Source: a virus
IMG/VR virus record: IMGVR_UViG_3300007609_001696
Location: 1-64,000 of that record
Length of the DNA: 64,000 nucleotides
Reading direction: 5' to 3' (one strand)
Part shown: one piece after another, positions 2,728 to 53,803 of the stretch
Layout: each line of letters starts with the position of its first letter
How positions within the stretch are numbered: the first letter of the stretch is position 1
Notes under the pieces: generated by a model
The model's input: only the letters and a program-made list of their open reading frames with translations
Database searches by the model: none
Told to the model about the DNA's origin: nothing
Position numbers and translations under genes: made by a program

Positions 2728-3390
2728 ATGATATTGTGTTTGGGTGATAGTTTTACCTTTGGTGAAGAATTAAAAAATCCAGCCAGGTCGGCATGGCCAG
2801 CATTATTGAGCAAACTCACTGGTATGCCTGTTGAAAATCAAGGCATGCCTGGCTCTGGAAACCATCGATTGATCAAAGAGTTGATAAATTCTTTTACCTC
2901 TAAAAAGCCACTTACAGCAGTAATTATTTGCTGGACCAGTGCACACCGGCAGGAGCATGCAGATCAAGCAGGAGCATTTGATATTTGGCCAGGATGCAGT
3001 GGCAGAACTTTTACCAGCATTGACACAGTGCACAGAAAACAGCTGATCAAATACATCACAGAATACCACAACGATGTGTACGATTACAGAAATTGGCTCA
3101 GGCAAGTCTACACAGCACAAATATTATGCGAGTCCAATGGTGTTCCTTATGTATTCTTTAATGCCTACGGCAATGAAATTTTAAATAAAAAATACATGGA
3201 AAATGTAGAAAATAAACATCTAATAGAAAGTGTAAACACACAACACTTTGTAGGATGGCCATACCAGGGCATAGTAGAATGGGTTTACGATTTGCCCAAA
3301 GGACCAGGCGGCCACACCCTAGAGCAAGGCCATCAACTGATAGCGGAAAAAATATATGAACATATTAGGAATCAGCACTGGGTTTCATGA
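2728..3390 (+). CDS. SGNH/GDSL hydrolase-like protein
   Basis: This is a paralogue of the preceding gene: MILCLGDSFTFGEEL gives block I, NQGMPGSGNHRLI gives block II and GGHTLEQGHQLIAEKI gives the C-terminal His block. I chose the ATG at 2728 because it puts the GDSF motif a few residues from the N terminus, as in its neighbour. An ATG at 2644 is in frame but would add 28 basic, low-complexity residues. The end overlaps the carbamoyltransferase start by 35 bp. Likely an esterase or acyl transferase; the substrate cannot be told from sequence. Confidence 0.66.
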   Translation: MILCLGDSFTFGEELKNPARSAWPALLSKLTGMPVENQGMPGSGNHRLIKELINSFTSKKPLTAVIICWTSAHRQEHADQAGAFDIWPGCSGRTFTSIDTVHRKQLIKYITEYHNDVYDYRNWLRQVYTAQILCESNGVPYVFFNAYGNEILNKKYMENVENKHLIESVNTQHFVGWPYQGIVEWVYDLPKGPGGHTLEQGHQLIAEKIYEHIRNQHWVS

Positions 3391-4843
3391 TGCTGGTGTA
3401 GCGGTTGTTGATTACAACGGCAGAATACTTTTTGCTGCACACAGTGAGAGATACAGCAAACAAAAACACGACAAGTACCTCAATCAACAAATACTCAGTC
3501 AAGCATCTGATTATGGAGAAATTCACAAAGTTGCTTACTATGAAATTCCGTGGCTAAAAAAGACCAGAGAAATTTATGCCGGACAGGGATTTGCTAACGG
3601 TAGTTGCCTCAGTGCAAAGTCGGCATTACATCAACAAGGTATAGATTTTTCTCAGTCTATATCAGAGTGGCCCCACCACATGACACATGCTGCTGCTGGG
3701 TTTCAAACAAGCCCATTCAATGAAGCAACTTGTGTGGTAATAGACGCAATTGGTGAATGGGATACAATTAGTATATGGGATGCTAAGTATGATGCCGATG
3801 GAGTAGCACAATACACCAAATTATATAGTCGCCAGTATCCTCATAGTTTAGGCTTGTTGTACAGTGCAATCACTGACTACATAGGATTAAGGCCGATGGA
3901 TGAAGAGTATATTACGATGGGCATGGCCGGCTGGGGCGCTCCGGTACATGTGGAAAAAATTCGAAAAGATTTTATACAAAACAGCAAAAACTTTACCCTC
4001 AAGCAAAATCTGCACGTAGGCATACCAGAAGAGTGGTTCGGAGAAGCTACACCAGAAGATCTAGCAGCAAGTGTTCAGCAAATAGCTGAGGAGGAAATAG
4101 CAAACGTGATGTCTGTGGCTCAACGTAAGGGTCGTAGTGCGAATCTTGTGTACATGGGCGGTGTTGCCCTAAACTGTGTTGCAAACAGCAAAATAGCACC
4201 GCTTTGGGACGATATATGGATAATGCCAAACCCAGGGGATTGCGGCAGTAGTTTAGGCGCGGCTGCACTTGAGTATGGTAAAAAACTCAATTGGACTACC
4301 CCTTATCTTGGAACTGAAATCAAGGGGCCTTACCCTGTGGGCAAGTTGGTCAAAGAGTTGAAAAAAAATCAAATTGCAGGTGTTGCCAACGGAAGAGCAG
4401 AATTTGGACCAAGAGCACTAGGAAATAGAAGTTTGTTGGCTGATCCGAGAGGTCCGCACATCAAAGACCGTGTCAACGAAATCAAGCGTAGGCAAAAGTT
4501 TAGACCGTTTGCGCCTGTGATTCTCGAAGAACATGCTGCAGATTATTTTGAAATGCCCGTAGAAAAATCTCCATATATGCAGTTTGTGGCCCGGGTCAAA
4601 GATCCAGAAAGTTTTCCTGCTATAACGCACATAGACGGAACTGCTCGAGTACAAACAGTAGGCCGATCAGAATCGGGCACTGGTATACGTCAGCTCTTAG
4701 AAGTTTGGTATCGAGAAACCGGATGCCCTATGTTGTTGAACACAAGTTTAAACATTCGTGGGGAGCCTATAGTCGACACTGAACAAGATGCTGCAAAATG
4801 GACAGCACAGTATAGTGTGCCTGTGTTTACCACAGAGCTTTAA
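3356..4843 (+). CDS. Carbamoyltransferase (NodU/CmcH family)
   Basis: The N-terminal Kae1-like ATPase domain opens with ILGISTGFHDAGVAVVD and contains the metal-binding HHMTHAAAGF near residue 105 and GGVALNCVANS near 265. The C-terminal domain holds the family signature EFGPRALGNRSLLADPR (about 350-366). Such enzymes transfer a carbamoyl group from carbamoyl phosphate, through an adenylate, to hydroxyl groups of sugars or antibiotics. The 495-aa length is slightly short for the family. It closes a + strand run of radical-SAM, unknown, SGNH and SGNH genes, so it may decorate the same molecule. Phage homologues are known from T4-like marine phages; the acceptor is unknown. It ends convergently with the next gene, overlapping by 4 bp. 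Confidence 0.9.
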   Translation: MNILGISTGFHDAGVAVVDYNGRILFAAHSERYSKQKHDKYLNQQILSQASDYGEIHKVAYYEIPWLKKTREIYAGQGFANGSCLSAKSALHQQGIDFSQSISEWPHHMTHAAAGFQTSPFNEATCVVIDAIGEWDTISIWDAKYDADGVAQYTKLYSRQYPHSLGLLYSAITDYIGLRPMDEEYITMGMAGWGAPVHVEKIRKDFIQNSKNFTLKQNLHVGIPEEWFGEATPEDLAASVQQIAEEEIANVMSVAQRKGRSANLVYMGGVALNCVANSKIAPLWDDIWIMPNPGDCGSSLGAAALEYGKKLNWTTPYLGTEIKGPYPVGKLVKELKKNQIAGVANGRAEFGPRALGNRSLLADPRGPHIKDRVNEIKRRQKFRPFAPVILEEHAADYFEMPVEKSPYMQFVARVKDPESFPAITHIDGTARVQTVGRSESGTGIRQLLEVWYRETGCPMLLNTSLNIRGEPIVDTEQDAAKWTAQYSVPVFTTEL

Positions 4844-5907
4844 ATTTTAGCTATTGCAATTTCAAGATTGGTAAACAACTCGTTGACCAGTCGTTCTTGC
4901 AAGCCGTCACTAAACACATGGTGTTGATTGTATTCTAATACGCCCTGTATTACATTGTATCTATCTTTTAGATCGTCGATGTTTAATTCGCCCACTGATT
5001 TTATCACCTTTAAAACTTTTTGATATCTACTTGCATGACTTACGTCATTGTCGTAGCTTTCGTTCCACAATCCGTGATAGGTCTCAAATCCATAGTCGTG
5101 CAGGGTATTGAGCGTGTTGGGTGTGCCTAAAACCACAAACGGCATGCCCAACACAAACGGTTTGAGAGTTTTTTCAGTGATATAATTTTCTTTGTAGTCA
5201 AACACAGTTTCTGTGACTATGTTCATAAAGCATTGTTTGGCATATTTGTTTTCTATGTAAAAACTTTGCTGTGTGTTGTCGTCCAGCACCAATGGCAACG
5301 TTTCTGCGGCTTGTGCAACATTGTGATGCTGACAGTCGTAGTCTGTGCAACTTTCCTCAAAGGTTCTTCCTGTGTAAGCGTCTTGCTCAGGGAAGCTAAA
5401 AAGACTGTTTTTTAACAAGTCTTTGTCGACTATGTCGCACAATAGCCATCTACGATGCGGCCGCGGCCCGTCAAACAATCTGTTTAAACTGTAAAAATGA
5501 TAGTTTATATCTGCTTTTTGTTTTATTAGTGGATTGTGCTTGTATCCTCGATACCAATCTTGTGCTACAATGCCATGAAAGAAGAAATATACCGGTGTCC
5601 AGTTGTATTTTTCTATGTATTGAGATAAATTTACACCCCATCGTTGCGTAGTAATAAGTACTACACGAGATCCCCACTCTTTGAATAATTCGCCATAATG
5701 ATCTAAAAATGGAACACTTGCAAAAATTGGCTCTTGATCGTATACTAAAAATACCACATCTGGTACATCTACTGTGCTTTCAAACGCAACTTGATCAGGC
5801 GAGCTGGATCCAAAAGGATATGGATAAACCAGTGCTGGGTTTAGATGTCTATGATTTTCAAAAATATAATCTTTAAGAGTAAGGTAAAATTGGTCTAAAT
5901 TAAACAT
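4840..5907 (-). CDS. GT10-like (fucosyltransferase-like) glycosyltransferase, paralogue A
   Basis: The C-terminal third contains IVTETVF...YITEKTLKPFVLGMPFVV and a following WNESYD, about residues 230-300. This resembles the donor-binding E...ITEK(L/T)...G.PVV.G motif of GT10 family fucosyltransferases. Two further proteins in the window share the pattern (44477-45646 and 51210-52436). An N-x-L-x-x-x-x-R-x-H-R segment near 150 is also shared with the third copy. Its start codon overlaps that of the divergent repeat-protein gene inside a CATG at 5905-5908. The assignment as glycosyltransferase is inference from the motif; sugar and acceptor are unknown. Confidence 0.6.
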   Translation of the reverse strand: MFNLDQFYLTLKDYIFENHRHLNPALVYPYPFGSSSPDQVAFESTVDVPDVVFLVYDQEPIFASVPFLDHYGELFKEWGSRVVLITTQRWGVNLSQYIEKYNWTPVYFFFHGIVAQDWYRGYKHNPLIKQKADINYHFYSLNRLFDGPRPHRRWLLCDIVDKDLLKNSLFSFPEQDAYTGRTFEESCTDYDCQHHNVAQAAETLPLVLDDNTQQSFYIENKYAKQCFMNIVTETVFDYKENYITEKTLKPFVLGMPFVVLGTPNTLNTLHDYGFETYHGLWNESYDNDVSHASRYQKVLKVIKSVGELNIDDLKDRYNVIQGVLEYNQHHVFSDGLQERLVNELFTNLEIAIAKI

Positions 5908-8900
5908 GTTTGATGTATTTTATTACGGAAAGAAACCTGATATATTCAGTTTCGAACAATATGCCGAAACTTTGGCACAGGCACAAGAATTATCAAAAAC
6001 TGAACGCTTTTGGTATATTTATGGCGGAAACGACTACTCAAATTTTAATTTTAATGTGATACCTCCTAGTTGGGAATGGAATCATGTGTATGTGTACGGC
6101 AGTCAATGGCAAAAAGATGGCGGTGTGTATCTTGCCTGCAAATGGGATATTGGTCCTTACAACTATAGACAAGAACAACGTGTAAAACGTTTGCCGTGTC
6201 AGGATTTTTGGCAGATACCAATAGATATTGAAGATTTTGATTTTAGCTGGCACCCAGATCCGCAGGAAAAATTTATTCACATATTTGGTACTCAATGGCA
6301 ACAAAGTGGCGGCCCTGAATACCACACACCTGGTGCAGACGAATACAAATTCGAAGCTGTGCAGCGTGCTACGGCGTTGCCCAACAAAAACCATTGGTAC
6401 ATATCTGATAATATTGATACCAGTGCATTTGACTTTAGTTGGCATCCAAGATCTGATGAAAAATTTATTCATGTGTTTGGCACTCAATGGCAACCTGATG
6501 GCGGCCCTGAATATCGCACACCTGGTGCCAGCAAGAAGAAATATGAAATAAGTCAAAAAGCCACAGCAAAATCAAACAAACAACACTGGCACATACCTAA
6601 CAACATAGATGTCAGTACATTTGACTTTAGTTGGCATCCAAGATCTGATGAAAAATTTATTCATGTGTTTGGAACACAATGGCAACCTGATGGTGGTCCT
6701 GAATATCACACACCTGGTGCCACTGAACTCAAGTACGAAATATCCCAGAAAGCCACTGCAACGACAGATACCAAAAATTGGCATATACCCGACAATATTG
6801 ACACAAGTGGGTTTGACTTCTCATGGCACCCAAGATCAGATGAAAAATTTGTACACATTTTTGGCACTCAGTGGCAACCAGATGGAGGACCTGAGTATCA
6901 TACGCCAGGTGCTAGTGAACTCAAGTATGAAACTTCACAAAAAGCCATTGCTCGGCCTGTTCTGGACAACTGGCATGTGCCAGACTACATTGATCTAGAC
7001 AAGTTTGACTTTTCGTGGCATCCAAGGTCAGATGAAAAATTTATTCATGTATTCGGCACTCAGTGGCACAACAGTGGCGGTCCAGAGTATAGAACCACTG
7101 ACGCAACTGAAATAAAATTTGAGAACACACAACGAGCTGTGAGTATGCCGCAAAAAGACCGTTGGGAAATACCCGAGCATGCCGACATTGATAATTTTGA
7201 TTTCAGTTGGCATCCACCAAGAGGCGAAAGTTATGTGCATGTGTTTGGCAGTCAGTGGGCAAGAGATGTAGGTCCAAAATATGTTAGTCCCGGCAGCAAC
7301 AACAAAAAATATGAAACAGCACAGGTAGTAAAAGGCAAAATTACCACTGATATCTTTGTGATTGACCAATTCAACAGCAATAACACAACTAGTTATCAAA
7401 GTGTAAAATCGCAATATCCTGATGCCAAAAAAACCCGCGGGGTGGGCAATTGGGCCAGCATTATCAAAAAAGCCTGCGAAGCCAGCTCCAGTGATTTTGT
7501 GTGGGTTGTTAGCAGTGACTATGACTACACAGATTTTGATTTTGGCTGGTATCCCGAAACATGGCAAAGCAACATGATTCATGTGTTTGGTAGCAAGTAC
7601 CAAAAATGGGCTAATATATTCAGAGTTCCTCGTTGGGAATTTTTAAGATTGTCGCAATGGTTTGATGATATTAAGAATTTTCCTGAACTTAATTTTGTCG
7701 ACGACCAGAAAGTTAAACTGTTTGACGACAACAGAGAAATATGGTGGATTGATCACAGCAATAAATCAAGAGTACTGCGTAAAAATCACAAAATTGTAAG
7801 ATTTTTTGAAAGTTATTTGGAAACGATCAAACGAATAGTAGCCCGCACAGATCAAGAGTACATTTGGGTCACCAGCAGTTTGTGTGATTATAGTCAGTTT
7901 GATTTTGGTTGGGAGCCAGAACCTTGGCAACAAAATATGCTACATGTGTTTCCAAGCAATGAACAAAAATTTGGTGACACATTCTATGTGCCAGTAGCAG
8001 AGTTTCAAAAACAATCTGCAGATTTAAAATTACTTGACTGGTTTGACACTGTAAATTATGTTAAAGATCAAACAGTAGACCGAGTAGTAGCGCCAATTGA
8101 GTACTACAGTGGTTGTTTAACTGAAGCTGTAAAAAATTATAATTTTGTAGAGCCATACGTTAAGTTTATTCACAAATCAATACCAGCAATCGAGCCTTCT
8201 TCTGAGTCTTACTTGGTAACACCGTCAATTTGGCGCCCTCAAGACCGCGCTGTACACGCTTTTAACAACGGTGCTGCATGCTTGATACCAAAAGATGCTA
8301 AAAAGGCAATTAAGAGCCAGATTTATGATTATGACTATATATTGCGTCACAAAACTGAAAAATTTGTGGAAAAACCACTAGATGTTGTGTTTATTGCCAA
8401 TGGTGAAAAAAATTCTCAAAAGCACGAACAAAAATTAAAGGATCTAGTTCCTAGAGCAAAATCTAGTAAAAATGTACAAGGAAGAATGCAGGCTTACAAA
8501 GCCGCGGCTGAGTTAAGCAAAACTGAATGGTTTTTTGCAGTTTTTGCTAAGTGTGATGTGAATCCTTATTTTGATTTCAATTGGCATCCGGATAGACTAC
8601 AGGCGGATAAGCACTATATTTTTCATGCATACAATCCTATAAATGATCTCACATATGGACATATGTCTGTTATTGCCTATCATAGAGATACAATTTTAAA
8701 CACCAAAGAATGGCACAGTGATGTTACTCTTAGTGGTTTACACGAAGTAGTTCCTATGTTGAGTTGTACAGCAGTTTATGACGAAGACAAATATGCAGTA
8801 TGGAGAACAGCATTTAGGGAAACAATCAAGTTGTCTGCTCTGCAGGACATTGAAAGTACATACAGATTAGAAAAATGGCTTACAGTAGGCAATGGGGATC

Positions 8901-9031
8901 TAGGAGATTATAGTTTGCTTGGTGCAAAGCACGGAGTAGAATACTACAAAAACAACAAAGATGACATGGATGCTTTGCAGAAGCCTGCAGAATGGAAATG
9001 GTGCATGCAGTATTATAAGTCTAAGGTTTAA
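5906..9031 (+). CDS. Large modular repeat protein with GT-A-like fragments
   Basis: The 1041-aa protein consists mainly of a repeated module. The core is (F/W)xI...D...FDFSWHPRSDEK followed by FIHVFGTQWQPDGGPEY. Six copies follow each other with an exact 64-aa period (about residues 90-490). More divergent versions occur at the N terminus (YIYGGNDYSNFNF) and twice beyond residue 510 (WVVSSDYDYTDFDFGW, WVTSSLCDYSQFDFGW), and once more near 890 (FFAVFAKCDVNPYFDF). The divergent copies follow helices resembling the acceptor part of GT-A glycosyltransferases, and the DYDY/CDY region sits where a DxD metal site would be. I infer a protein built by duplication of a glycosyltransferase-like fragment. 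There is no signal peptide. Function unknown. Confidence 0.75.
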   Translation: MFDVFYYGKKPDIFSFEQYAETLAQAQELSKTERFWYIYGGNDYSNFNFNVIPPSWEWNHVYVYGSQWQKDGGVYLACKWDIGPYNYRQEQRVKRLPCQDFWQIPIDIEDFDFSWHPDPQEKFIHIFGTQWQQSGGPEYHTPGADEYKFEAVQRATALPNKNHWYISDNIDTSAFDFSWHPRSDEKFIHVFGTQWQPDGGPEYRTPGASKKKYEISQKATAKSNKQHWHIPNNIDVSTFDFSWHPRSDEKFIHVFGTQWQPDGGPEYHTPGATELKYEISQKATATTDTKNWHIPDNIDTSGFDFSWHPRSDEKFVHIFGTQWQPDGGPEYHTPGASELKYETSQKAIARPVLDNWHVPDYIDLDKFDFSWHPRSDEKFIHVFGTQWHNSGGPEYRTTDATEIKFENTQRAVSMPQKDRWEIPEHADIDNFDFSWHPPRGESYVHVFGSQWARDVGPKYVSPGSNNKKYETAQVVKGKITTDIFVIDQFNSNNTTSYQSVKSQYPDAKKTRGVGNWASIIKKACEASSSDFVWVVSSDYDYTDFDFGWYPETWQSNMIHVFGSKYQKWANIFRVPRWEFLRLSQWFDDIKNFPELNFVDDQKVKLFDDNREIWWIDHSNKSRVLRKNHKIVRFFESYLETIKRIVARTDQEYIWVTSSLCDYSQFDFGWEPEPWQQNMLHVFPSNEQKFGDTFYVPVAEFQKQSADLKLLDWFDTVNYVKDQTVDRVVAPIEYYSGCLTEAVKNYNFVEPYVKFIHKSIPAIEPSSESYLVTPSIWRPQDRAVHAFNNGAACLIPKDAKKAIKSQIYDYDYILRHKTEKFVEKPLDVVFIANGEKNSQKHEQKLKDLVPRAKSSKNVQGRMQAYKAAAELSKTEWFFAVFAKCDVNPYFDFNWHPDRLQADKHYIFHAYNPINDLTYGHMSVIAYHRDTILNTKEWHSDVTLSGLHEVVPMLSCTAVYDEDKYAVWRTAFRETIKLSALQDIESTYRLEKWLTVGNGDLGDYSLLGAKHGVEYYKNNKDDMDALQKPAEWKWCMQYYKSKV
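6236..7387 (+). repeat. Six in-frame 192-bp tandem repeat units
   Basis: Units begin at 6236, 6428, 6620, 6812, 7004 and 7196, each at the TTT codon of the Phe-Asp-Phe-Ser-Trp-His-Pro core, giving an exact 192-bp period. Units two to four are almost identical at the DNA level over the first 50 bases, which indicates recent duplication or ongoing gene conversion. The outer units are more divergent. Confidence 0.93.
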
Positions 9032-9965
9032 GCAGGTTTTTCAAATACCATTTGTAGTATTTTTTAACACCTTCTTCGAGGTCTATTTTTGGATCGTAAT
9101 CAAGATAGTGTCTTGCTTGAGAAATGTCCAGTTGACCTCTATGGGGATAGCTTGTATCTCGACAAGTTTCAACAACGGATCCTTTGCCAACAACTTCAAC
9201 TACAATTTTTGCCAAATCTGCCAGAGACCTAGCTTTGCCTCTAGAGATGTTGAAAACCTTTTTGTCAGTATCTTGTATGCCAGCAAGCATAATGCCACGT
9301 GCCGTGTCGGACACATAGGTAAAATCTAACTTCTCATTACCTTTAAGTAATAGTGGCATATCATTGTGTGCATTATGCAGAAATTTTCCAACCACTCTAT
9401 CATGATTATCTAATGGTCCATATACTGCGCTTGGCCTTACAATTCTCCAATCTATATTGTTTATATTGCAAAAATCTTTTGTAGTTAGCTCTGCTGCTCT
9501 TTTGTAAATGCCATATAATCCTTTTGGTTTTTTTGGCAGTTGCTCGCTTTGCGGATCTATGGTAAAATCGCCATATATCATACTCGAACTAACATAAACA
9601 AATTTTTCCACATTAGCTTTTGCACAATAGGAAAGGACATTGTACAAGCCGCTGCTGAAATTAGTAAGTGCTTCGTGTGGATAGGTATAAACCAGTTTGT
9701 TATTGGGAAAGTTTGCTAGGTGGTATGCTATAGTCGGCTGGAATTGATTAAGTTTCCACAATACCGAATCATCAAGATGTTCAATCTCGTTGCCAATTAT
9801 TTCGGCTTGTGGAATCCTTTCCATTCTCTTAAAGTACAAATCCCGAGGATTGTAAGATTTGTATGCATCAATTATCAATACATCGTAATTTAGAGTAATA
9901 AGTTGCTTGGCAAGATTATGCCCAATAAAGCCTAAACCTCCAAAAATTACTGCTCTTTTAGTCAC
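9021..9965 (-). CDS. NAD-dependent sugar epimerase/dehydratase (extended SDR)
   Basis: The N terminus shows the Rossmann motif GGLGFIGHNLA (residues 9-19). Extended-SDR features follow: YVSSSMIYGD (Ser/Thr of the triad) and the active-site YGIYK near residue 150, then RPSAVYGP. These enzymes interconvert nucleotide sugars. At 314 aa it has the normal length. It overlaps the upstream ThyX gene by 8 bp and the convergent repeat-protein gene by 11 bp. With the glycosyltransferase-like genes nearby it probably supplies an NDP-sugar. The exact reaction cannot be read from the sequence. Confidence 0.88.
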   Translation of the reverse strand: MTKRAVIFGGLGFIGHNLAKQLITLNYDVLIIDAYKSYNPRDLYFKRMERIPQAEIIGNEIEHLDDSVLWKLNQFQPTIAYHLANFPNNKLVYTYPHEALTNFSSGLYNVLSYCAKANVEKFVYVSSSMIYGDFTIDPQSEQLPKKPKGLYGIYKRAAELTTKDFCNINNIDWRIVRPSAVYGPLDNHDRVVGKFLHNAHNDMPLLLKGNEKLDFTYVSDTARGIMLAGIQDTDKKVFNISRGKARSLADLAKIVVEVVGKGSVVETCRDTSYPHRGQLDISQARHYLDYDPKIDLEEGVKKYYKWYLKNLLKP

Positions 9966-10620
9966 TTATATAATCTGTTGCTAATGGGAATATTTTTGTG
10001 ATAGCTTCGGCAACTGCCCGGGCAATTTCCATATGCTCTTTTTGTGTGCCATTGCCGGATCTCAGCTCGATGTAATGAATCCAACTACGGATAGTACCGT
10101 TCATGTACAAACGACTTTGGGTAAGTCCTTCTGGCAATACTGCTCTTGCTTGTTCTTTAGCAATGCCATTCTCGATAGCCCATTTATATGCTCTTCGTGA
10201 TTCTATAATTACACGTTCTTGTGCTAATGCCCATTCTGTTTTTAGATCGATATCGCTTGTTTCTACACTATTCTGGCGATTTTTTGTATCTTGCAGACGT
10301 GCTTCTCTAATTTCGAATCTTAAATCCTTAACTGGATCTGCATAACGTTGGGAAAACTCCTGAAAAGAGAACGATCTGTGTCTAAGGATTTGTCTTGCGA
10401 TGTCACGAGTAGTCTCGATCTCTAGGCACGCAGATACCATTTCAAATGGGCTCCAATGTTTGTGCTTTGCAAGGTAGTTGAGTAAACGCTCACTGGTCTC
10501 AGTATTGAGTTGATTCGATGGGTTAGATACTCGAGCAGCATATGCAATAAGATCTTGAACATTTTCTAATCCTTCTATTTCGTCAGAAGGTTGACTATAG
10601 TTAATTAGTTTAACTTGCAT
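9958..10620 (-). CDS. thyX: Flavin-dependent thymidylate synthase
   Basis: The ThyX signature RHR-x7-S is present as RHRSFSFQEFS followed by QRYAD (about residues 80-95). The C-terminal RLYMNGTIRSWIHYIELR matches the substrate-binding region. The enzyme makes dTMP from dUMP using methylenetetrahydrofolate, FAD and NADPH. Phages use it to raise the thymidine supply for replication. The 220-aa length is typical. It shares a base with the stop of the next gene upstream, so it is co-transcribed with the small genes at 10620-11626. Confidence 0.95.
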   Translation of the reverse strand: MQVKLINYSQPSDEIEGLENVQDLIAYAARVSNPSNQLNTETSERLLNYLAKHKHWSPFEMVSACLEIETTRDIARQILRHRSFSFQEFSQRYADPVKDLRFEIREARLQDTKNRQNSVETSDIDLKTEWALAQERVIIESRRAYKWAIENGIAKEQARAVLPEGLTQSRLYMNGTIRSWIHYIELRSGNGTQKEHMEIARAVAEAITKIFPLATDYISD

Positions 10621-22477: not shown

Positions 22478-22904
22478 TCCGTTTGATAGTATCGATCATG
22501 TGTTTTTGTTCTATCAAGTCTTCCAAACTGGGCAACGATTCTAGCTTGTGTTTCACTTCAGGACTGTCGCACAATGCTTGTTCTACCATTTCTACTCGGG
22601 TAATAATAGCATCCAGTTTATCGTCTATACGTTCCAGTGTTTCGGCAACTTTTATTTCTTTGCCTGCGCCTCTGTGTATGGTAACATCATTTGGCTGATC
22701 CAGTATATCTGTTAGTGTAAACGAATAGTCACTGTGATCGAACCAACCACTACCGCTCATGTTATCGTCTGAAAAAGACAAATCTAGGGCAGAATCATCT
22801 GCTCCTAGATCTAGTGTGATTGTGTCCTCTGTGTTGTTACTACAGTCCTCGCTGAGCACTATAATGTTAAAAGGATCATAATGGTGATTAGAATTTGAAC
22901 TCAT
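22464..22904 (-). CDS. Conserved phage protein, 146 aa
   Basis: The start at 22904 lies inside the last codons of the S8 protease gene (17 bp overlap). The protein begins MSSNSNHHYDPFNIIVL, has an acidic middle (DLGADDSALDLSF), then DVTIHRGAGKEIKVAETLERIDDKLDAI, which I recall from uncharacterised T4-like marine phage proteins. The last part is a coiled-coil-like helix. Function unknown. Confidence 0.65.
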   Translation of the reverse strand: MSSNSNHHYDPFNIIVLSEDCSNNTEDTITLDLGADDSALDLSFSDDNMSGSGWFDHSDYSFTLTDILDQPNDVTIHRGAGKEIKVAETLERIDDKLDAIITRVEMVEQALCDSPEVKHKLESLPSLEDLIEQKHMIDTIKRSGDV

Positions 22905-25900
22905 ATTCCACGCCGTATTCCACAACATCTTGATCTGTGCCGGCATAGTTGACCCTATTCTCAACGTATGCACCAAGGTTGTGATTGTCTGTATTATAAC
23001 TTAAACTTACACCAAAGTCAACTTCGGTATAGCCACTGCTGAGATTTGCTGTTTGTCGCTGAGTGATTACCTTGCCGTCTATGGTGCGTGCAACTGGAAC
23101 ATCTAAATTAAGATCCCCGCTTACAATCCGAGTAGGAATACTTGCTGTAGCACCAAACACATAGTCGCTAACATTTTTAAACATCCCGACATGAGCTGAT
23201 ACGCTTGTCACGTTGTTGACTTCAGAAACTAAACTACTGTCTGCACCGGCATTGTTAATGCTGTATCCTAATTCTGTGCGTCCGATAAAGTCAAGCCCAA
23301 ACATGTTCTTAGACGCTGTGTAAGCGCCGTACACAGTACGAGTATGATCATCTAATGCAAATACTCCACTAAAATCATTGCCCAACAATTGATCTTTTTC
23401 TTGCACAAACCCAATCTCCCAACTGTTGTACTGTTTGGCAATACCAAACGAGTTTTGGTTGTGTCCTGATACTACCAAGCCCATTGCACGTTGAACACTG
23501 CCTGCTAGACTAGCAAAACTGGACGTGACCTTACCTTGACTGAGATCCTTGGCCCAACTAGCGACACGAGTATCTTCTGTAAAGTTAGCACTGCTGAGAT
23601 CAACGTAGAAGTCACGTTCAAACTTGTCCAGCACCATTGTATTGCTAGCCACACTTCCTAAGTTGATGTTACCTCCGACACCGCCGCTCAACTGTGCTAC
23701 GCCGCCATCGGTTCGGCCTGTTTTGGGGATTCCGGTAGCACCCACTGGTTGCGTAGCACTATCCATGTCAAGCAATCCTTGTCCGTGTACATTTTCATTG
23801 TAGTTGGGAATGTCTTTGTTTGCTGTAGTTAGTACTAATTTAGCCAAGTTTGGTGCTGTCATGTGTGGCCACATTTGATGCAACACTGCTACTGCACCTG
23901 CAACTGCCGGAGCTGCCATACTAGTTCCACTCATATGATTGTAATTGTTGTTGCGCACACTGCTATAAACACTGCTCCCCGGAGCCATAATATAGAAGTC
24001 TTTGATCCTGTATGCATCGTTGCACTGTTGAACAGCATCATTCCAATCCAAGCAAACATGTCCTGCTTTATTACTGGACGGATCGATGCGATCGTTTGCC
24101 GAGTTCCAGTTGCCTACAATCAACATTCTGCCATCTAACACAAGATCGCCATTGTCGTCTGTGACTGTGGCCATTAGACCCGGGTAAGCTGCGTAGTCTA
24201 GTCCGTCGTTGCCGGCAGCCACTGTTAGTACAGTTTGATTGTTGTCTGCAGATACCCAATTTTTTGTGTCATCTACATAACCATTGTAACCGTTGGTGCT
24301 GTAGTACCAATGGTTGTTGCTGAACATACCATTGCCGTGGCTCTCAAGATTGTTTTTCCAGCCACTGTCGAAATTACTGCTGGCACTCATGTTGTAAACC
24401 ACTGCTCCGTTTTGATGTGCCCAAGCAAGCCCTTGCTTGGCGTAAAAGAAACTGTAACCCGTGTTGTTGGTTACTTTGGCAATTAGCAGTTTAGCATCAG
24501 GTGCAACACCCACGGATCCGTTGTTGTTCAACTCTCCGGCTGCAATACCGGCTACATGAGTGCCATGACCGTCTAAATCACTGACATTTGAAGATCCGTC
24601 TAAGAAATTTTTAGTGCCAATTATTTGATCGTCCAATTCTGCATGATTAACGTCGGCACCTGTGTCGGCAATAGCAATAATACTGCCTTTGCCCGTCCAT
24701 CCTCTGCTCCATGCAGCATCTACTTTGATTTCTGCAAGATGATCATCGCCTTTGCTGTCAGTGGCCCAAAATTCTTGCTTGCTTCTATATTCGTCTGCAG
24801 AAAGCACACCGGCAGTAGGAGTGCCTAATGCTGAATCAGAATATTCAACATCAACATATCCGTCAAAATCGTCTTCAACTTCTTGTGTATCATCCACAGA
24901 TTGATTGTTCTTTATGGATACATCAGTTTGTTCAACCACAGTTTCTTTTTTAGGAGAAGCAATTATTTCTTCTGTGGTTACACGGCGAACAATTTTTGTT
25001 TTTGTACTTTCGTCGCTGTATGTTTCCTTGATTGTATCATCCCAGATAGTTTCCACTACTTCGATCTGACCGGTTGTAATTCTATATTCGGTATACTCTG
25101 CGATCACAGTATCACCGTTGGAATTTACACTTTCCTCCTCGTAGACACGAATAAGTAACTTTCTCACGTCTCCGTCTTTGACTTCGATAATTCTGCGAGC
25201 CTTCATTTCGGTACCCATAACTGTTGACTCGGTAAGCGAAACAACTGGCTCTTCAACAACTGGTTCTTCTACCACTGGCTCTTCAACAACTGGCTCTTCT
25301 ACCACTGGCTCTTCTTCAACTACCACTGGCTCTTCTTCAACTACCACTGGCTCTTCAACTACCACTGGTTCTTCAACTACCACTGGCTCTTCTTCAACTA
25401 CCACTGGCTCTTCAACTACCACTGGCTCTTCTTCGATAACTACTTCGCCGTCGGAGCCGGTTACTACTACTAAATTGTTTTCCTGTATGATATTATCTGC
25501 TTGTTGTTGTGATTCTACAGCAACAATTTGAGATTCGGAATAGATATAATTTTCAAATTGCCCCGGATCGGCAATAATGTTTGCTTGTGAAACATCAATA
25601 GGTTTGCCGTAGCTGATTTGTTCTACCAAGGGTTTGACTTTTTGCGATAAAAACTTAAAACTGGCCGCGGCAGTGTAATAATCACTGCTGTACAATATTT
25701 GTGCTTGTTTGATTGGATCTAGCTGATTAATAGAAGCCTGTAAAGCAGACCATGTTGACTCGAGCGCACGAATTGCTCTTGTAGCTGTGTGTGCTATTTG
25801 TTGATCAGAACCTGTGGGATTGGTCAGACTACTCAGTCGCCCAAGTGCATTTAATTGTTGTTCGAGACCGCTGATATTAGCTTGTACTTGAGAAATATTT

Positions 25901-26034
25901 TGGTTTAACCCGGCTTCGTTGAGAATGTTTTGCACAGGTTGAGAAATGGTGTTTGCACCAGAGTTACCTCCACTGCCGCATCCCGCCAACAGGGCTGTAG
26001 CCGAAACTGCAAGTGCTAATTTTGAATACTTCAT
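22888..26034 (-). CDS. Lipoprotein subtilisin (S8) with C-terminal beta-barrel
   Basis: Residues 1-19 form a lipoprotein signal (MKYSKLALAVSATALLAGC, lipobox L-A-G-C19). A helical N-terminal lobe follows (20-190), then a Glu-Pro-Val repeat (200-265), then the S8 catalytic domain. Its triad is Asp457 (IADTGAD), His490 (DGHGTHVAG) and Ser705 (MSGTSMAAP), with oxyanion Asn609. The last 220 residues look like amphipathic beta strands ending in Phe, the usual end of outer-membrane barrels, so the protein resembles an autotransporter. The gene has its own TTGACA promoter. Export to the outer membrane is inferred. A surface protease in a phage is very unusual; it may be host-derived and act in exclusion or remodelling of the cell surface. 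Confidence 0.9.
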   Translation of the reverse strand: MKYSKLALAVSATALLAGCGSGGNSGANTISQPVQNILNEAGLNQNISQVQANISGLEQQLNALGRLSSLTNPTGSDQQIAHTATRAIRALESTWSALQASINQLDPIKQAQILYSSDYYTAAASFKFLSQKVKPLVEQISYGKPIDVSQANIIADPGQFENYIYSESQIVAVESQQQADNIIQENNLVVVTGSDGEVVIEEEPVVVEEPVVVEEEPVVVEEPVVVEEPVVVEEEPVVVEEEPVVEEPVVEEPVVEEPVVEEPVVSLTESTVMGTEMKARRIIEVKDGDVRKLLIRVYEEESVNSNGDTVIAEYTEYRITTGQIEVVETIWDDTIKETYSDESTKTKIVRRVTTEEIIASPKKETVVEQTDVSIKNNQSVDDTQEVEDDFDGYVDVEYSDSALGTPTAGVLSADEYRSKQEFWATDSKGDDHLAEIKVDAAWSRGWTGKGSIIAIADTGADVNHAELDDQIIGTKNFLDGSSNVSDLDGHGTHVAGIAAGELNNNGSVGVAPDAKLLIAKVTNNTGYSFFYAKQGLAWAHQNGAVVYNMSASSNFDSGWKNNLESHGNGMFSNNHWYYSTNGYNGYVDDTKNWVSADNNQTVLTVAAGNDGLDYAAYPGLMATVTDDNGDLVLDGRMLIVGNWNSANDRIDPSSNKAGHVCLDWNDAVQQCNDAYRIKDFYIMAPGSSVYSSVRNNNYNHMSGTSMAAPAVAGAVAVLHQMWPHMTAPNLAKLVLTTANKDIPNYNENVHGQGLLDMDSATQPVGATGIPKTGRTDGGVAQLSGGVGGNINLGSVASNTMVLDKFERDFYVDLSSANFTEDTRVASWAKDLSQGKVTSSFASLAGSVQRAMGLVVSGHNQNSFGIAKQYNSWEIGFVQEKDQLLGNDFSGVFALDDHTRTVYGAYTASKNMFGLDFIGRTELGYSINNAGADSSLVSEVNNVTSVSAHVGMFKNVSDYVFGATASIPTRIVSGDLNLDVPVARTIDGKVITQRQTANLSSGYTEVDFGVSLSYNTDNHNLGAYVENRVNYAGTDQDVVEYGVEYEFKF
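25236..25436 (-). repeat. VEEPVV minisatellite in the S8 protease gene
   Basis: Tandem 15-21 bp units encoding (V)VEEPVV/VVVEEEPVV fill residues 200-265. The near-perfect DNA copies make this tract prone to length change. It probably forms a stiff acidic linker between the signal/helical lobe and the protease. Confidence 0.9.
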
Positions 26035-34712: not shown

Positions 34713-35696
34713 TTAAAACTCAAACAAACTGTCAAAAGTTGTGCTAGTATCGGTCTTTTCTTTGAGATCCCAATCTAGTTCGCCTAATAGATTGTTGACT
34801 TTTGCATCAACAATTGTTTCTGTCATTAGGTCGTCATCAAACGGTAATTCTTTAAACCAATTTGGAATATGTAATTCGTCAATTGGGTATGCTACACTGG
34901 TATAGCCCATGGGATTGTGTTTGAGCTTGCACACAATTGTTTTTTGCCCATCCATTATTTCCATGGAATATTTGTCTCCGTTCATTTCACGCAGACTATT
35001 CCAATTGAGTGCTGCTCTGACGTGGCCCGGCATGTTCACTTTGCCTTTTCTTGCTAATTCATTGCGAAACTTGGTCAAGTTGTTTACACGTTTGGGTGTG
35101 CCTTTTTCCCAACTGGGCATTTGTTTAAATTCCAGTTTAAAGTCACGGATTCGCTCTGTAACATAATCTTCACCTAGATCCATCAGTGTATCCAACAAAA
35201 TACTGCTGAGAAAGTCTTGCATAAACTTTGGTGTGTCCGACCTTTTTAGGTCAAGGCCCATTGCTTTTACCTTGCCTGGCTTTCCGTCTATGTCTTTGCG
35301 CTCGCCTTCGTCATCATAAACCAGTAATGCATAGCGTTTCTTAGTGATAAACAATCCGCTTTCGGCCACAGCTTCTCGTCCACACTGCACAATTTCACCG
35401 TACTTTCTTGGACAAGCAAATGCACGTTTCATGAAGTCAGGAAAGCTCGCAGACACTTGTTCGCCAATTTGATCATACAATTGTACTACTGTGTCTTTGT
35501 CCCAGGTCATGGTGCCTGATTCAACTTCCTTGCGCACAGCCGGCCATGCACTAAAATAGCAGGAATCTGTGTTGTGTAAAAGAATATCATTGCCAAAAAA
35601 GAATGGATCGCCATCAGCAATACTTATATCGTAAACATAATCATCGTCGGTGTTAACAAGCTCTACAGATTTTACTCGTTCTCTGATAGTATCCAT
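34713..35696 (-). CDS. DNA polymerase B, C-terminal part preceded by IntC
   Basis: The ORF first encodes a C-terminal split-intein half (about 42 aa), ending ...FFFGNDILLHN. The C-extein then starts Thr-Asp-Ser (TDSCYFSAW), which restores the polymerase YGDTDS motif C when joined to the N-terminal half. After the motif the sequence has MKRAFACPRKYGEIV, ITKKRYALLVYD, KAMGLDLKRSDTPKFMQDFL and other features of the thumb/palm. I chose the ATG at 35696 as it lies 8 nt behind AAAGGA; an ATG at 35705 is also in frame. Without splicing this half would not be an active polymerase. Confidence 0.9.
   Translation of the reverse strand: MDTIRERVKSVELVNTDDDYVYDISIADGDPFFFGNDILLHNTDSCYFSAWPAVRKEVESGTMTWDKDTVVQLYDQIGEQVSASFPDFMKRAFACPRKYGEIVQCGREAVAESGLFITKKRYALLVYDDEGERKDIDGKPGKVKAMGLDLKRSDTPKFMQDFLSSILLDTLMDLGEDYVTERIRDFKLEFKQMPSWEKGTPKRVNNLTKFRNELARKGKVNMPGHVRAALNWNSLREMNGDKYSMEIMDGQKTIVCKLKHNPMGYTSVAYPIDELHIPNWFKELPFDDDLMTETIVDAKVNNLLGELDWDLKEKTDTSTTFDSLFEF
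35571..35696 (-). other. Split intein C-terminal half (IntC)
   Basis: Encodes the last intein residues with blocks F and G: VYDISIADGDPFFFGNDILLHN is the typical V-x-D-I ... F-x-x-N-x-I-x-x-HN pattern (within 35571-35636), ending His-Asn. The next residue is Thr (+1) of the C-extein. It is the partner of the IntN at 36657-37028. Confidence 0.9.
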
Positions 35697-36628
35697 TTTT
35701 TGCATTCCTTTAAAATTTTATTGGGATTTTCTAAAAATTCACTTTCCCAAATAACTAAACATTTAATATTTCTTTCAGACAGTAAAAGTTTTATTTTTTG
35801 ACTATCTTCTTTCCATATATCACTGGCAACCTTGTTAACAACAGAATGGTAATAATTTTCAACAAAAAATTTAGGATTGCAGTGCCAGTAATCTCCATTA
35901 TATTCAATTGCTTTGTTGTTGTGCACTATATCATAAAAATTAGCTTTGTTATGGCCGTAGACGCAGTACTGTTTTGTATTGCACGAATAGTCTAAGCTAA
36001 ATCCTAAATATTTTTCTAATTCATCTACAAAAAATTTTTCTGTATTGCTAACATAATTTGTAGTATGTACTCTTTCCTGCAATATTATTACTGCCGTTTC
36101 TGTATCGCAATTATATCTTTTACAAATATTTTCTATAGAGTGTGATTTTTCTTTGCAGATTTCTTTATATTTTTTTGTACCTTGTTCTTTGCCATACTTT
36201 TCTACAAAATAATCTATGGTATTTGTGTATGCTTGTCGCTCGCAATAGTTTTGCCAGCGTATTGTGCCTTCCGCTTCTCCGTGTTTTTTGATTAGATTTT
36301 TCAGTGTAACTGCTCTACTTTTGTTAAAGTCTTCAAAATCTTTATCTGTCCAGCCGTATTTTTCTTTTTTATATTCATAAGAATTAGAATATGCCTGTTT
36401 TTGTTTATATGCCTGCCACCGCAGTTTTCCTTCTTCGACTCCGTGTTTTTTAATTAGATTAGATTCAGTGACGGCTGTATTTTTTGCTAAAGCGTCATCT
36501 ACAAGTTTTGCTTCCGGATAAACTTTTTTGTATTCTCTACCGTTTGCGAATCGTCCTGTGCAATTATATTTGAAATGTGTCCATTGCAATCTTGGGGCTT
36601 CAAAGCCGCATTCTAAACATTTAGGCAT
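35672..36628 (-). CDS. Free-standing Vsr-like homing endonuclease
   Basis: The N terminus has a Cys-x2-Cys zinc-like motif (PKCLECGFEAPRLQW) followed by three repeated motifs with LIKKHG...G..RWQ (about residues 60-140). These resemble DNA-binding repeats of phage homing endonucleases. The C-terminal 110 residues contain a catalytic core KAIEYNGDYWHCNP...WKEDSQKIKLLLSERNIKCLVIWESEF, the pattern of Vsr-like (EDxHD) endonucleases of split-intein loci. The gene lies between the two polymerase halves, so it presumably spreads the intein. Its stop overlaps the IntC gene. Confidence 0.85.
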   Translation of the reverse strand: MPKCLECGFEAPRLQWTHFKYNCTGRFANGREYKKVYPEAKLVDDALAKNTAVTESNLIKKHGVEEGKLRWQAYKQKQAYSNSYEYKKEKYGWTDKDFEDFNKSRAVTLKNLIKKHGEAEGTIRWQNYCERQAYTNTIDYFVEKYGKEQGTKKYKEICKEKSHSIENICKRYNCDTETAVIILQERVHTTNYVSNTEKFFVDELEKYLGFSLDYSCNTKQYCVYGHNKANFYDIVHNNKAIEYNGDYWHCNPKFFVENYYHSVVNKVASDIWKEDSQKIKLLLSERNIKCLVIWESEFLENPNKILKECKKWILSENE

Positions 36629-36653
36629 ATGGCGATACTCCTGTTGTCATAAA

Positions 36654-38822
36654 CTATTTATCGCCTAGGACGGTAATTAATAAATCATTTGGTTGCAATT
36701 CAGTTGGTTTAACTTCACATGTAAAACCATCTCTGTCCACAATTAGACTATGATCTTCTGTTACGATAATTTGCTTTCCAGATTCGCTTGTAACTTTATA
36801 TTTTTTCTTTAAAGTTGAATGACGCATAACATACGAAATATTATAAAAGGAAGCCTGATCCTCATAACTATTGTAACCTAACACTTTATGATCATTGTTT
36901 TTAGAAGTAGGAATCGCGTATTCTTTGTTGTTATCTTGAATAACCCTATATTCGATGTTATTAAAAAGTTCTTCGATACTAATTTTGTTGCCGTTTGACA
37001 AAGTTATTAAAGTATTGCCAGTTACACTATCGCCATATATAACTGCATCGCCAACGTGATTGTATTCACCTACAATCAGTTCATTTGCATATGCATCCAT
37101 GTGCTTGGCAATTTGTCTGCCAGTGAGTGTAGTTGATTGACCAATGCGCTTATCAAAGAATCTACAACCAGGGTTAAGAATAGCACCATACAAACTGTTC
37201 AAGTTAATTTTCTTGACCAGCTGTCTCTTATCCCAAAACTCTCTGTCTTCTGGTGTTTGTGCGTCTTTCTTTTTCTTCTGCAACTCCTTGCGTTCTGCAT
37301 ACCAACGTTCTAGCAGCCCAGGCACAACACCTTGTATATCGTAGCGGAAGATAGTGCCATTTGCACTCAACACCCATGGTTCACTGCTGAGATAGATTAG
37401 TTTATAAATCTCTGCGCCTGTTAGTGTGTCCGATTCGCCGTTTTCCCAGTCTACTGTGATAGGATGAGTGGTGTCTTGTGACATAACATATCCGTATTCT
37501 CTACTGCCAAACTCCCCCTCCCAGGCCTCAGCAAAGCTCTTTTTCTTGGCCATTCTTGACTCAACCATTTCTTCTGTGTAGTCCTGTCGGAGCTGACCAA
37601 GAATGGTTTCGGGTGCCATGTTAAGAGCACGAATCACACTAGGATATAGACTGTTCAAGTCAATACTGCCAATCCATTTGTGCATGCCTTTTTTGGGATA
37701 TGCAACATAAGCACCAGCTGCGGCAGTATTTTCGCCGTGATCCTTGCGATTGGGCACCACCATGCCGCGTTCGTGTGCCTCGTTGATAATGGCTTGTTCA
37801 GTAACAGCAACTGCTCCCATGGTTGTTTGTAGCAACACTGTGTTGGCATGGGCTAGTTCATTTGCAAGGGCTAGAAATTTAAGTTTTTTGTCTAGCTTTC
37901 CTAGTAGAGCAGTATCTTGTCTGTTGTAGTCGATAAACTTTTCAAAATCGTGATTGTACAATTGATCAAGTGTACCTTCATAAGCAACTTTCTTTTCACT
38001 TAGTTCGTGCTCGCCTATGGCATCAAGGCTATAGCTGTGTCGTTCTTCGTAGGTGTATTTTCTGTACAGTTGCATATAGTCCATGTGCACTCTGCCTACT
38101 AGATCAAATGTTTCATTTTCAGCACCATATCTTTCAAAAGTGCGTTTTTTAGGAAACTGATTCCACAAACAAAACTGCCGAGTGTACTCCTTGCCCAGCA
38201 CTTTGGTAATGCGATTCACTGTGTACGGAATATCATATCCTTCGCTGTTCCACCCACTTAGCACATCAGCATCTTCGATCAGTGCTAAAAAAGTTTCCAG
38301 CATGTCTTCTTCGCGGTCAAACATAAAAGTATTGCCAAATTTCTCGGCAATCTGCTGTGCTTCTTGTGCATCTACAGTTTTTGGCGGAATAGCAAGAGTT
38401 ACCAATTGATCTAGCCAGTCTAGATAGACTGTAATAGCTGTGATTTTGTTGAAAGGATCACTGGGCGGCGAAAAGCCTTTGGTGGTATCAAAGTCAGCCT
38501 CAATATCAAAAAAAGCTGTTTGAAGTTCAGGGGCATCGTGGTTATAGTAATTGTTGGCAAGACATCTAAACACTGGATTGATATCACTCTCAAACAGTGC
38601 TTTTTGCCCATGAATTTTCAGTTCTTTGCGAAATTCTTTTTGTGATTTACAACGAACTTGTGTTACGGGATCTCCGTAGATACTGCGATGTTTGCCTTTG
38701 GGATCTGCATAGTAGAAAGTAAATTCTACTGGGTATTCACGAAACTCTCGTTGACCGCGAATGCGTTCCACAATGTGAATAGTGTCTCGATCTCTGTCAA
38801 ACAGAGCGTCAACATATGACAT
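36654..38822 (-). CDS. DNA polymerase B, N-terminal part fused to IntN
   Basis: The N-terminal 598 residues are a family-B polymerase: exonuclease motif FFDIEADFDTT near residue 105, then DVLSGWNSEGYDIPY, FIDYNRQDT, then the polymerase motif A SIDLNSLYPSVIRALNMAP (about 385) and motif B KINLNSLYGAIL. The ORF reaches AVIYGD and then continues into a 124-aa intein N-half. The rest of motif C is on the other gene (34713-35696). Spliced product length would be about 883 aa, close to T4 gp43 (898). Three tandem AT-rich repeats lie upstream. Confidence 0.93.
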   Translation of the reverse strand: MSYVDALFDRDRDTIHIVERIRGQREFREYPVEFTFYYADPKGKHRSIYGDPVTQVRCKSQKEFRKELKIHGQKALFESDINPVFRCLANNYYNHDAPELQTAFFDIEADFDTTKGFSPPSDPFNKITAITVYLDWLDQLVTLAIPPKTVDAQEAQQIAEKFGNTFMFDREEDMLETFLALIEDADVLSGWNSEGYDIPYTVNRITKVLGKEYTRQFCLWNQFPKKRTFERYGAENETFDLVGRVHMDYMQLYRKYTYEERHSYSLDAIGEHELSEKKVAYEGTLDQLYNHDFEKFIDYNRQDTALLGKLDKKLKFLALANELAHANTVLLQTTMGAVAVTEQAIINEAHERGMVVPNRKDHGENTAAAGAYVAYPKKGMHKWIGSIDLNSLYPSVIRALNMAPETILGQLRQDYTEEMVESRMAKKKSFAEAWEGEFGSREYGYVMSQDTTHPITVDWENGESDTLTGAEIYKLIYLSSEPWVLSANGTIFRYDIQGVVPGLLERWYAERKELQKKKKDAQTPEDREFWDKRQLVKKINLNSLYGAILNPGCRFFDKRIGQSTTLTGRQIAKHMDAYANELIVGEYNHVGDAVIYGDSVTGNTLITLSNGNKISIEELFNNIEYRVIQDNNKEYAIPTSKNNDHKVLGYNSYEDQASFYNISYVMRHSTLKKKYKVTSESGKQIIVTEDHSLIVDRDGFTCEVKPTELQPNDLLITVLGDK
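36655..36662 (-). promoter_or_regulatory. Late promoter-like octamer GATAAATA
   Basis: Minus-strand GATAAATA formed by the end of the IntN gene; the endonuclease ATG (36628) lies 26 nt downstream with AGGAGT between. It could give late expression of the endonuclease. Confidence 0.5.
36657..37028 (-). other. Split intein N-terminal half (IntN)
   Basis: Begins with Ser at 37028 (block A, SVTGNTLITLSNG), and has block B (GKQIIVTEDHSLIVD, with T-x-x-H). It ends with a stop codon after ...LLITVLGDK. The intein is inserted in the polymerase motif C between Asp of YGD and Thr of TDS. It does not carry an endonuclease domain; that function is on the separate gene 35672-36628. Confidence 0.92.
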
Positions 38823-44473: not shown

Positions 44474-44481
44474 TATTTATG
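44474..44481 (-). promoter_or_regulatory. Late promoter octamer CATAAATA
   Basis: Minus strand, formed at the end of the GT10-like paralogue B. The next start (44454) lies 19 nt downstream behind AAAGGA. Confidence 0.55.
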
Positions 44482-53011: not shown

Positions 53012-53803
53012 CTATTTATCGAACAGTCTGAACTCTTGTATACTATTGATGCTGTCGCTCAACAGGATCTGTGACATTTGCACCGAAGCTAGATCAGTGG
53101 CATAAAAATATATCTTTCCGTATGAATACATTTTGTTGGTGAGATTTTCCTGTGCATTGTCGGGAATATATATAGAGTCGATCTGTTTTGCCCATTCCAA
53201 GAAAGCCAGTCCTCGTGTGTAGTAGTCTTGCTTTTTGCTTGTGCTGACATTTACTTTGTAGTTGTATTTGTTGTAGGGCAACTTCTTTTTGTAAGCCACA
53301 TTTACATCACCGTAGGTAACGTGTTCGTTTGGCACAGTCACAGTTCTAAGCCACAAATCAAAGCTGTGTTTTCTTGCAAAATATTTTTCTGTAGCGTGTA
53401 AGAAATTATTCAACACTGCTGGATCGTTGGCGTATATGCTGCACCAGCTGCCTTCGCAACGTATCATTGAATGGTCTTTGTTTTTTCTTGCAAATCGTGC
53501 CAACTGTGCAATCACATTCAAGCACTGAGTATCCGGCGCTGTGTAACCATCTGACATTTCTCTATAAAAAAATCCCCAGCTGAGCTGTCTATCGCTCAGC
53601 ATTGGCAATGAGTCAAAATGTGCTTTGAGTTGCTCTGGGGTTTCCAGTTTCCATTTGTAGCGTCTTATGCCTTTGCAGTCAAGTTGCAACTTGTAGAGAT
53701 ATTTGTTGTAGAAAGGCTTTTCTGTTTGCTCAATCTTTAGGCTTAAACTGGTCCAGTACGATAAGTCCTGCTCCGTCCACATTTGGTACTGCGGTGTCTT
53801 CAT
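53012..53803 (-). CDS. Hypothetical protein, 263 aa
   Basis: Start at 53803 follows GCAGAGG with a 5-nt gap and lies inside the ClpA gene's end (74 bp overlap). The protein is aromatic and Lys-rich, with FARKNKDHSMIRCEGSWCSIYAN and several Trp; no known domain. The last codons form the octamer GATAAATA. Confidence 0.6.
   Translation of the reverse strand: MKTPQYQMWTEQDLSYWTSLSLKIEQTEKPFYNKYLYKLQLDCKGIRRYKWKLETPEQLKAHFDSLPMLSDRQLSWGFFYREMSDGYTAPDTQCLNVIAQLARFARKNKDHSMIRCEGSWCSIYANDPAVLNNFLHATEKYFARKHSFDLWLRTVTVPNEHVTYGDVNVAYKKKLPYNKYNYKVNVSTSKKQDYYTRGLAFLEWAKQIDSIYIPDNAQENLTNKMYSYGKIYFYATDLASVQMSQILLSDSINSIQEFRLFDK
53013..53020 (-). promoter_or_regulatory. Late promoter octamer GATAAATA
   Basis: Minus strand, overlapping the stop codon of the 263-aa gene; the next start (52992) is 20 nt downstream with a GGAGT site. 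Confidence 0.55.

Follow-up and report, generated by a model that had tools for sequence, protein, structure and literature searches.

The glycosyltransferase A (GT-A) fold has a common core, for which the K4 chondroitin polymerase structure 2z87 is the prototype (PMC7185993). Bacterial GT6 proteins are metal-independent GT-A enzymes with an NXN motif (PMC3961637), basic side chains have been reported in place of the metal in GT14 (PMC7185993), and COSMC, a member of GT31, is a pseudo-glycosyltransferase scaffold (PMC7185993). Here, we describe a phage gene whose product appears to be built from pieces of this fold. It lies in a stretch of 64,000 nucleotides (hereafter the window), positions 1 to 64,000 of IMG/VR record IMGVR_UViG_3300007609_001696, an 83-kb virus record from an uncultured phage. 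The gene, P0001 (hereafter the array gene), encodes a strictly periodic array of short units between modules related to one another, and ends in a GT-A-like domain that has lost the DxD motif. The number of units differs between close relatives, and the gene sits among genes for sugar metabolism.

The array gene (5906-9031, plus strand, as are all its parts) is an intact open reading frame (ORF) of 1041 aa, and its homologues show a matching module order. It begins with a GT-A-like cap module (aa 1-86; 5906-6163), laid out as strand, helix, strand, and then the first motif copy at aa 29, with strands and a helix predicted across aa 3-95 by AlphaFold2. Six short units of 64 aa follow, at 6164-6355, 6356-6547, 6548-6739, 6740-6931, 6932-7123, and 7124-7315, the sixth being the most divergent. 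Next come two long GT-A-like modules with approximate boundaries: module 1 (about aa 471-606; 7316-7723), with the motif SSDYDYTDFDFGWYP, and module 2 with a linker (about aa 607-800; 7724-8305), with the motif SSLCDYSQFDFGWEP. The protein closes with a conserved C-terminal GT-A-like domain (aa 801-1041; 8306-9028). A profile search found ten motif copies in all, at aa 29, 95, 157, 221, 285, 349, 413, 526, 647, and 870.

The 64-aa period is genuine and strictly kept. FDFSWHP occurs in the six units at aa 111, 175, 239, 303, 367, and 431, a spacing of exactly 64 aa, and Tandem Repeats Finder independently gave a 192-nt period for the corresponding DNA (6164-7315; score 609, far beyond chance). 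Both results agree with the first-pass annotation, made from the DNA letters, which had reported six units with a perfect 64-aa period. Its description of the 192-bp repeat as exact, with nearly identical DNA in three units, did not hold up, so that what it observed was confirmed in part. In-register unit pairs share 46-77% DNA identity; the best pair, units 2 and 3, reaches 77% and contains one exact run of 55 nt, while units 2 and 4 are 69% and units 3 and 4 are 73% identical. The best pair in another register reaches 82%. Where two units encode the same amino acid, the codons differ in 43-60% of cases for most pairs, compared with 54% expected under random codon choice. A lower difference was seen only for units 2 and 3 (13 of 46 codons) and, inside short conserved blocks, for units 1 and 2 (9 of 30), 1 and 3 (11 of 33), and 2 and 6 (12 of 29). 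Because codon differences in most pairs are close to the random expectation, most of the unit duplications are old.

The modules of the protein form a chain of homology. An iterated profile search seeded from the six units found 2 to 25 motif copies per protein among the relatives, in a constant order: usually an N-terminal copy, 0 to about 20 short units (62-75 aa), as many as three longer modules, and finally the C-terminal domain. The longer, half-GT-A modules are spaced by about 110-135 aa; the window protein has two. Profile comparison with hhalign linked short units to long modules (98.1% probability) and to the N-terminal cap, 5906-6163 in the window (97.1%), and linked long modules to the cap (99.8%) and to the C-terminal domain (96.3%), with the qualification that a single iterated search supplied the hits behind all of these profiles, which are therefore not fully independent. 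The match between the C-terminal domain of the window protein and its own long module 1 is independent of profile iteration (phmmer independent E-value [i-E] of 7.6e-7), and the AlphaFold2 model has an alpha/beta pattern in that stretch. Long module 2, which is conserved across a 54-row alignment (A2), matched the C-terminal domain with an i-E of 0.002. In sequence and predicted secondary structure, the first strand and helix of the cap and long modules are missing from the short units, which resemble the strand-FDF-strand-strand portion of a GT-A fold, reused as a building block.

To place the fold, we compared the full-length AlphaFold2 model (mean predicted local distance difference test [pLDDT] of 89; predicted template modeling [pTM] score of 0.57) with PDB structures using Foldseek. 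Every one of the top 50 matches was a GT-A glycosyltransferase or an enzyme that contains a GT (LH3). The best was chondroitin polymerase 2z87 (E = 8.9e-6), and others included SunS, RmlT, GalNAc-Ts, ArnC, and WrtF. Consistent with this, the named matches in BFVD behind two family members were mostly glycosyltransferases. The first-pass annotation had read the divergent terminal copies as GT-A pieces and had named an unrelated fold as the outcome that would count against it; the predicted fold is glycosyltransferase-related, and the profile links from long modules to the C-terminal domain (96%) and from that domain to a stand-alone viral protein that keeps a DxD-like motif (99%) point the same way.

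The DxD motif is lost from the array protein. In the C-terminal domain, its position reads Ala-Lys (FAK), and the Lys is invariant in all 18 sequences of a C-domain alignment (A1) and in A2. No DxD consensus was found in the N-terminal, short, or long modules. In five of the first 22 loci (L014, L017, L018, L022, and L023), a separate single-domain relative of the C-terminal domain is encoded within a few kb of the array gene. Used as a query, the L014 protein (5971-6915) found 198 relatives, and [DN]G[DN]N was present in 80 of the 80 loci kept, at the place expected for the GT-A DxD. This DGDN protein, which has no name in Pfam or PHROGs, is homologous to the array C-domain (hhalign, 99.2%); it is a single domain that keeps the DxD-like motif and has no array, whereas the array C-domain has lost the motif. 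In L014 (5971-10650), and similarly in L017, L018, and L022, the gene order is the stand-alone DxD-type protein, a radical SAM protein (PF04055 in L014), and the array gene.

The A1 alignment indicates that the array C-domain keeps many invariant residues despite the loss of DxD. Among them, D139, Y117-G118-H119, and E172 are candidates for the xED catalytic base, the G-loop glycine, and the C-His, an assignment that would require superposed coordinates. Because we looked for DxD and found it missing, we do not claim membership among catalytic GT-A enzymes; the array protein is probably a GT-A-derived variant.

We then modeled the short-unit array as four units in place of six, which gave a deeper alignment (A3; four window units and 60 four-unit stretches of relatives). 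The model had a pLDDT of 96.3 and a pTM of 0.84, with three main strands per unit and the units predicted to be fixed relative to one another, forming a rigid rod. W, P, Y, and K positions in A3 are invariant or more than 90% conserved across very divergent viruses. The short units are rich in aromatic residues, with W, Y, F, and H making up a mean of 18.8%; the median for local ORFs is 14.0%, and the short units fall at about the 90th percentile of these. Foldseek found no match for the rod in PDB even at E = 10, although it may mask repetitive queries. These results suggest a new repeat architecture, which we treat only as a lead because of this possible masking and because AlphaFold2 can be over-confident on regular repeats. 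The combination of a constant GT-A end domain with a rod of trimmed units may likewise be an architecture unseen in solved structures.

Many viral contigs carry this family, which none of the libraries that we used names. IMG/VR yielded 22 relatives of the whole protein, and a search with A1, which covers the C-terminal 241 aa, showed that at least 570 viral contigs encode a relative, of which 80 were kept. BFVD contains two relatives over approximately the full length, A0A6J5L5L5 and A0A6J5LK21 (36% and 30% identity). Both belong to the same family and are recorded as 'Uncharacterized protein [uncultured Caudovirales phage]'; at 1076 and 804 aa, they differ in architecture from the window protein. 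Pfam, PHROGs, and PDB sequences hold no family for the array protein or its C-domain; for the protein, the sole library match below 0.001 spans 14 residues and is to an unnamed PHROG. A tblastn search of 50,697 cultured phage records gave no match. Pattern scans of GTDB genomes were also without a match, but these depend on conserved peptides, so distant bacterial relatives could escape them. We found no description of the family in the published literature. A family this widespread in viral contigs has no Pfam or PHROG entry, no relative found in a cultured phage, and no solved relative.

Whole units have been gained, lost, or replaced between close relatives. L002 and L005 differ by a clean 65-aa insertion between flanks that are 86-93% identical in protein, and L013 and L019 by a clean 130-aa indel with flanks 83-87% identical. 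Compared with six short units in the window, L031 and L032 have two. L007 and L009 share flanks of 94-95% DNA identity, yet blastn at 1e-20 found no match across the array that these enclose, and the two proteins differ by 201 aa. The record names of L031 and L078 carry one and the same IMG sample number; their C-domains are identical, and their DNA is 98.7% identical over the 7.5 kb that run onward from a point inside the gene, yet they contain two and zero short units. Among pairs whose C-domains are 95% identical or more, 8 of 14 differ in module number; this set leaves out identical proteins, and several of its pairs share members, so that they are not independent events. By these comparisons, unit number evidently changes faster than the neighboring domain diverges. 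Copy number is thus not fixed, the other outcome that the first-pass annotation had said would count against it. Its proposal of active expansion fails for the DNA of this genome but stands at the level of the family, where modules turn over rapidly.

An assembly artefact was considered and rejected for the window array, whose units are at most 77-82% alike. For the arrays of relatives, in IMG/VR records that we take to be mostly short-read assemblies, such an artefact is unlikely because separate records agree in their counts (L002/L003/L004/L021, L059/L060/L061, and L088/L090/L091) and because L031 and L078 differ by 1.3% and are not exact copies.

The genomic neighborhood of the array gene was surveyed within 6 kb in 102 fetched loci, a set that includes near-duplicates and cut contigs. 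Upstream in the window is a NodU/TobZ-type carbamoyltransferase (3356-4843, plus strand; PF16861, E = 3.5e-54; PF02543, E = 4.1e-40), with a homologue in 75 of the 102 loci. Downstream and convergent is an NAD-dependent nucleotide-sugar epimerase (9021-9965, minus strand; PF01370, E = 3.4e-36; PHROG 540), with a homologue in 67. A DegT-family aminotransferase is near the array gene in 75 loci, an SGNH-like family in 36, thymidylate synthase in 22, and dihydrofolate reductase (DHFR) in 20. The window gene at 9958-10620, which by eye carries the ThyX signature RHRxxS, has homologues in 42. This neighborhood speaks for a locus that makes or decorates an unusual sugar. Between the carbamoyltransferase and the array gene lies a divergent gene (4840-5907, minus strand) that shares 2 nt with the start of the array gene; its product matches nothing in Pfam or PHROGs and has a homologue in 49 loci. 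By eye, a TEKTxKPxxxxxPFxxxGxxxxLxxLxxxGxxT-like pattern is present in this protein and in those of 44477-45646 and 51210-52436, all on the minus strand. Away from the array locus, 26954-27631 (minus strand) encodes a short DegT-like protein of 225 aa that partly covers the family model (PF01041, E = 3e-12).

We favor, at about even confidence, a GT-A-derived protein of glycan assembly in which the variable array is a scaffold for acceptor binding. The constant part is the C-terminal GT-A-like domain, usually with the preceding module, and the variable part is the rod. With an invariant lysine in place of the metal-binding DxD, the C-terminal zone may handle a sugar donor or acceptor, whether it transfers sugar itself without a metal or assists other transferases as a pseudo-enzyme. 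The short units of 62-75 aa would be a trimmed GT-A fold (strand-FDFxWxP-strand-strand) that has lost its nucleotide-binding front half and packs as one rigid rod. This aromatic-rich rod could bind and position a glycan or a glycosylated acceptor, and recombination between units could quickly alter its length and surface. Within this picture, the module layout, the chain of homology, the loss of DxD, the conserved sugar locus, and the turnover of whole units are shown by the sequences; the fold and the rigid rod are predictions, and acceptor binding, enzymatic activity, and the reason why turnover would be favored are inferences. We favor this reading because metal-independent GT6 (PMC3961637) and GT14 and the pseudo-glycosyltransferase scaffold COSMC (PMC7185993) give precedents. 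Several results weigh against it. Foldseek template modeling scores (TM-scores) were low, at 0.09-0.13 by query and at most 0.37 by target, because the alignments run over several modules; the Rossmann-like GT-A alpha/beta fold is therefore a prediction supported by E-values and the unanimity of matches, without superposition. The direct hhalign link between short units and the C-terminal domain reaches just 68.5%. In Pfam, neither the window protein nor any of the 18 C-domains falls into a GT family, GT6 and GT14 included, and no PDB chain is a sequence relative of the array protein or its C-domain. It is also possible that the protein binds instead of transferring, or that copy number has no selected role.

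The rigid, aromatic-rich rod, its fast turnover, and the array swaps beside near-identical flanks would also suit a virion-exposed adhesin that binds sugars or receptors on the host surface, with unit turnover tracking surface changes. We consider this doubtful: the recurrent neighbors are sugar-nucleotide and thymidylate genes with no tail or baseplate genes among them, the array protein has no tail PHROG match, and its constant part is a GT-A-like domain. The first-pass interpretation as a whole is supported in part; of its sugar- or receptor-binding array, a sugar-related role is plausible and the receptor role is disfavored by the gene's place among nucleotide-sugar genes. That the array is decaying or neutral, with unequal crossing-over multiplying a dispensable degenerate segment, seems improbable. 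Tandem repeats do grow and shrink on their own, and proteins with zero short units exist, as in L078; against this, the W, P, Y, and K residues of the units are conserved across very divergent viruses, homologues occur as long open frames, and arrays as long as 25 copies are maintained.

The presence of several GT-A-like modules in a single chain, and a best structural match to the two-domain polymerase K4CP, might instead point to an assembly line in which each module is active, sugars are added in turn, and module number sets glycan length. The absence of a DxD consensus from every module type, and of the Rossmann front half from the short units, makes this very unlikely. Least probable of all is a DNA hypermodification locus of the 5-carbamoyloxymethylcytosine type, in which the array protein would act on modified bases. 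A carbamoyltransferase paired with thymidylate synthase has been reported for modified contigs (PMC8670742), and both are neighbors of the array gene in some relatives. The thymidylate-synthase homologue of the 5-carbamoyloxymethylcytosine locus has Asp at position 177 (PMC8670742), whereas the two that we inspected (L007 and L010) read PFNIASY, with the Asn of the canonical deoxyuridine monophosphate (dUMP) type; a cytosine-carbamoylation locus is therefore unsupported. Furthermore, the window carries a ThyX-type gene instead, and the DegT and epimerase genes indicate sugars.

Elsewhere in the record, 22888-26034 (minus strand) encodes a protein of 1048 aa whose N-terminus resembles that of a lipoprotein and which contains low-complexity VVEEP repeats and a subtilase domain (PF00082, E = 3.7e-40); its C-terminus is autotransporter-like by eye. 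Such a protein is unusual for a phage contig. A family B DNA polymerase (34713-38822, minus strand) is divided between two ORFs that have ORF 35672-36628 between them. An intein N-part closes the first and an intein C-part opens the second, an arrangement resembling a fractured gene that carries a split intein. A ClpA/ClpB-like AAA ATPase (53730-56048, minus strand) lies beside ORFs that by eye are peptide-deformylase-like (56029-56496) and DnaJ-like (56501-57274). Near the contig end, record positions 82491-83198 (L186 18491-19198, minus strand) encode 2Fe-2S and 4Fe-4S domains (PF13085 and PF13534) resembling the iron-sulfur subunit of succinate dehydrogenase, possibly a metabolic gene or host sequence.

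Returning to the GT-A-derived protein of glycan assembly, an enzyme fold appears to have been cut to a repeat unit and stacked, which makes this family a case for studying such change. If the array sets the choice of glycan or acceptor, it would offer a testable way to learn how phages go on changing surface sugars; otherwise, it would still be a candidate for a new repeat architecture. By analogy with the variable modules of other arms-race systems, recombination within the rod might reset the glycan or acceptor of a modular recognition and assembly protein with a constant GT-A end, an idea that we hold as speculative and rather unlikely. Like the array protein, K4 chondroitin polymerase of Escherichia coli, a multidomain GT2 enzyme, alternates strand-helix modules in a single chain; no sequence similarity was detected between the two, and the array protein differs in its lack of a DxD consensus and its tandem, trimmed modules of variable number. 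GT6 with NXN and GT14 share with the array C-domain a GT-A fold and the loss of DxD, but the array C-domain has Ala-Lys at the motif and is not a member of either by sequence. COSMC, too, is a GT-A relative with lost motifs, and both it and the array C-domain could serve another transferase; COSMC is a single human GT31 protein, whereas the array family consists of phage module arrays.

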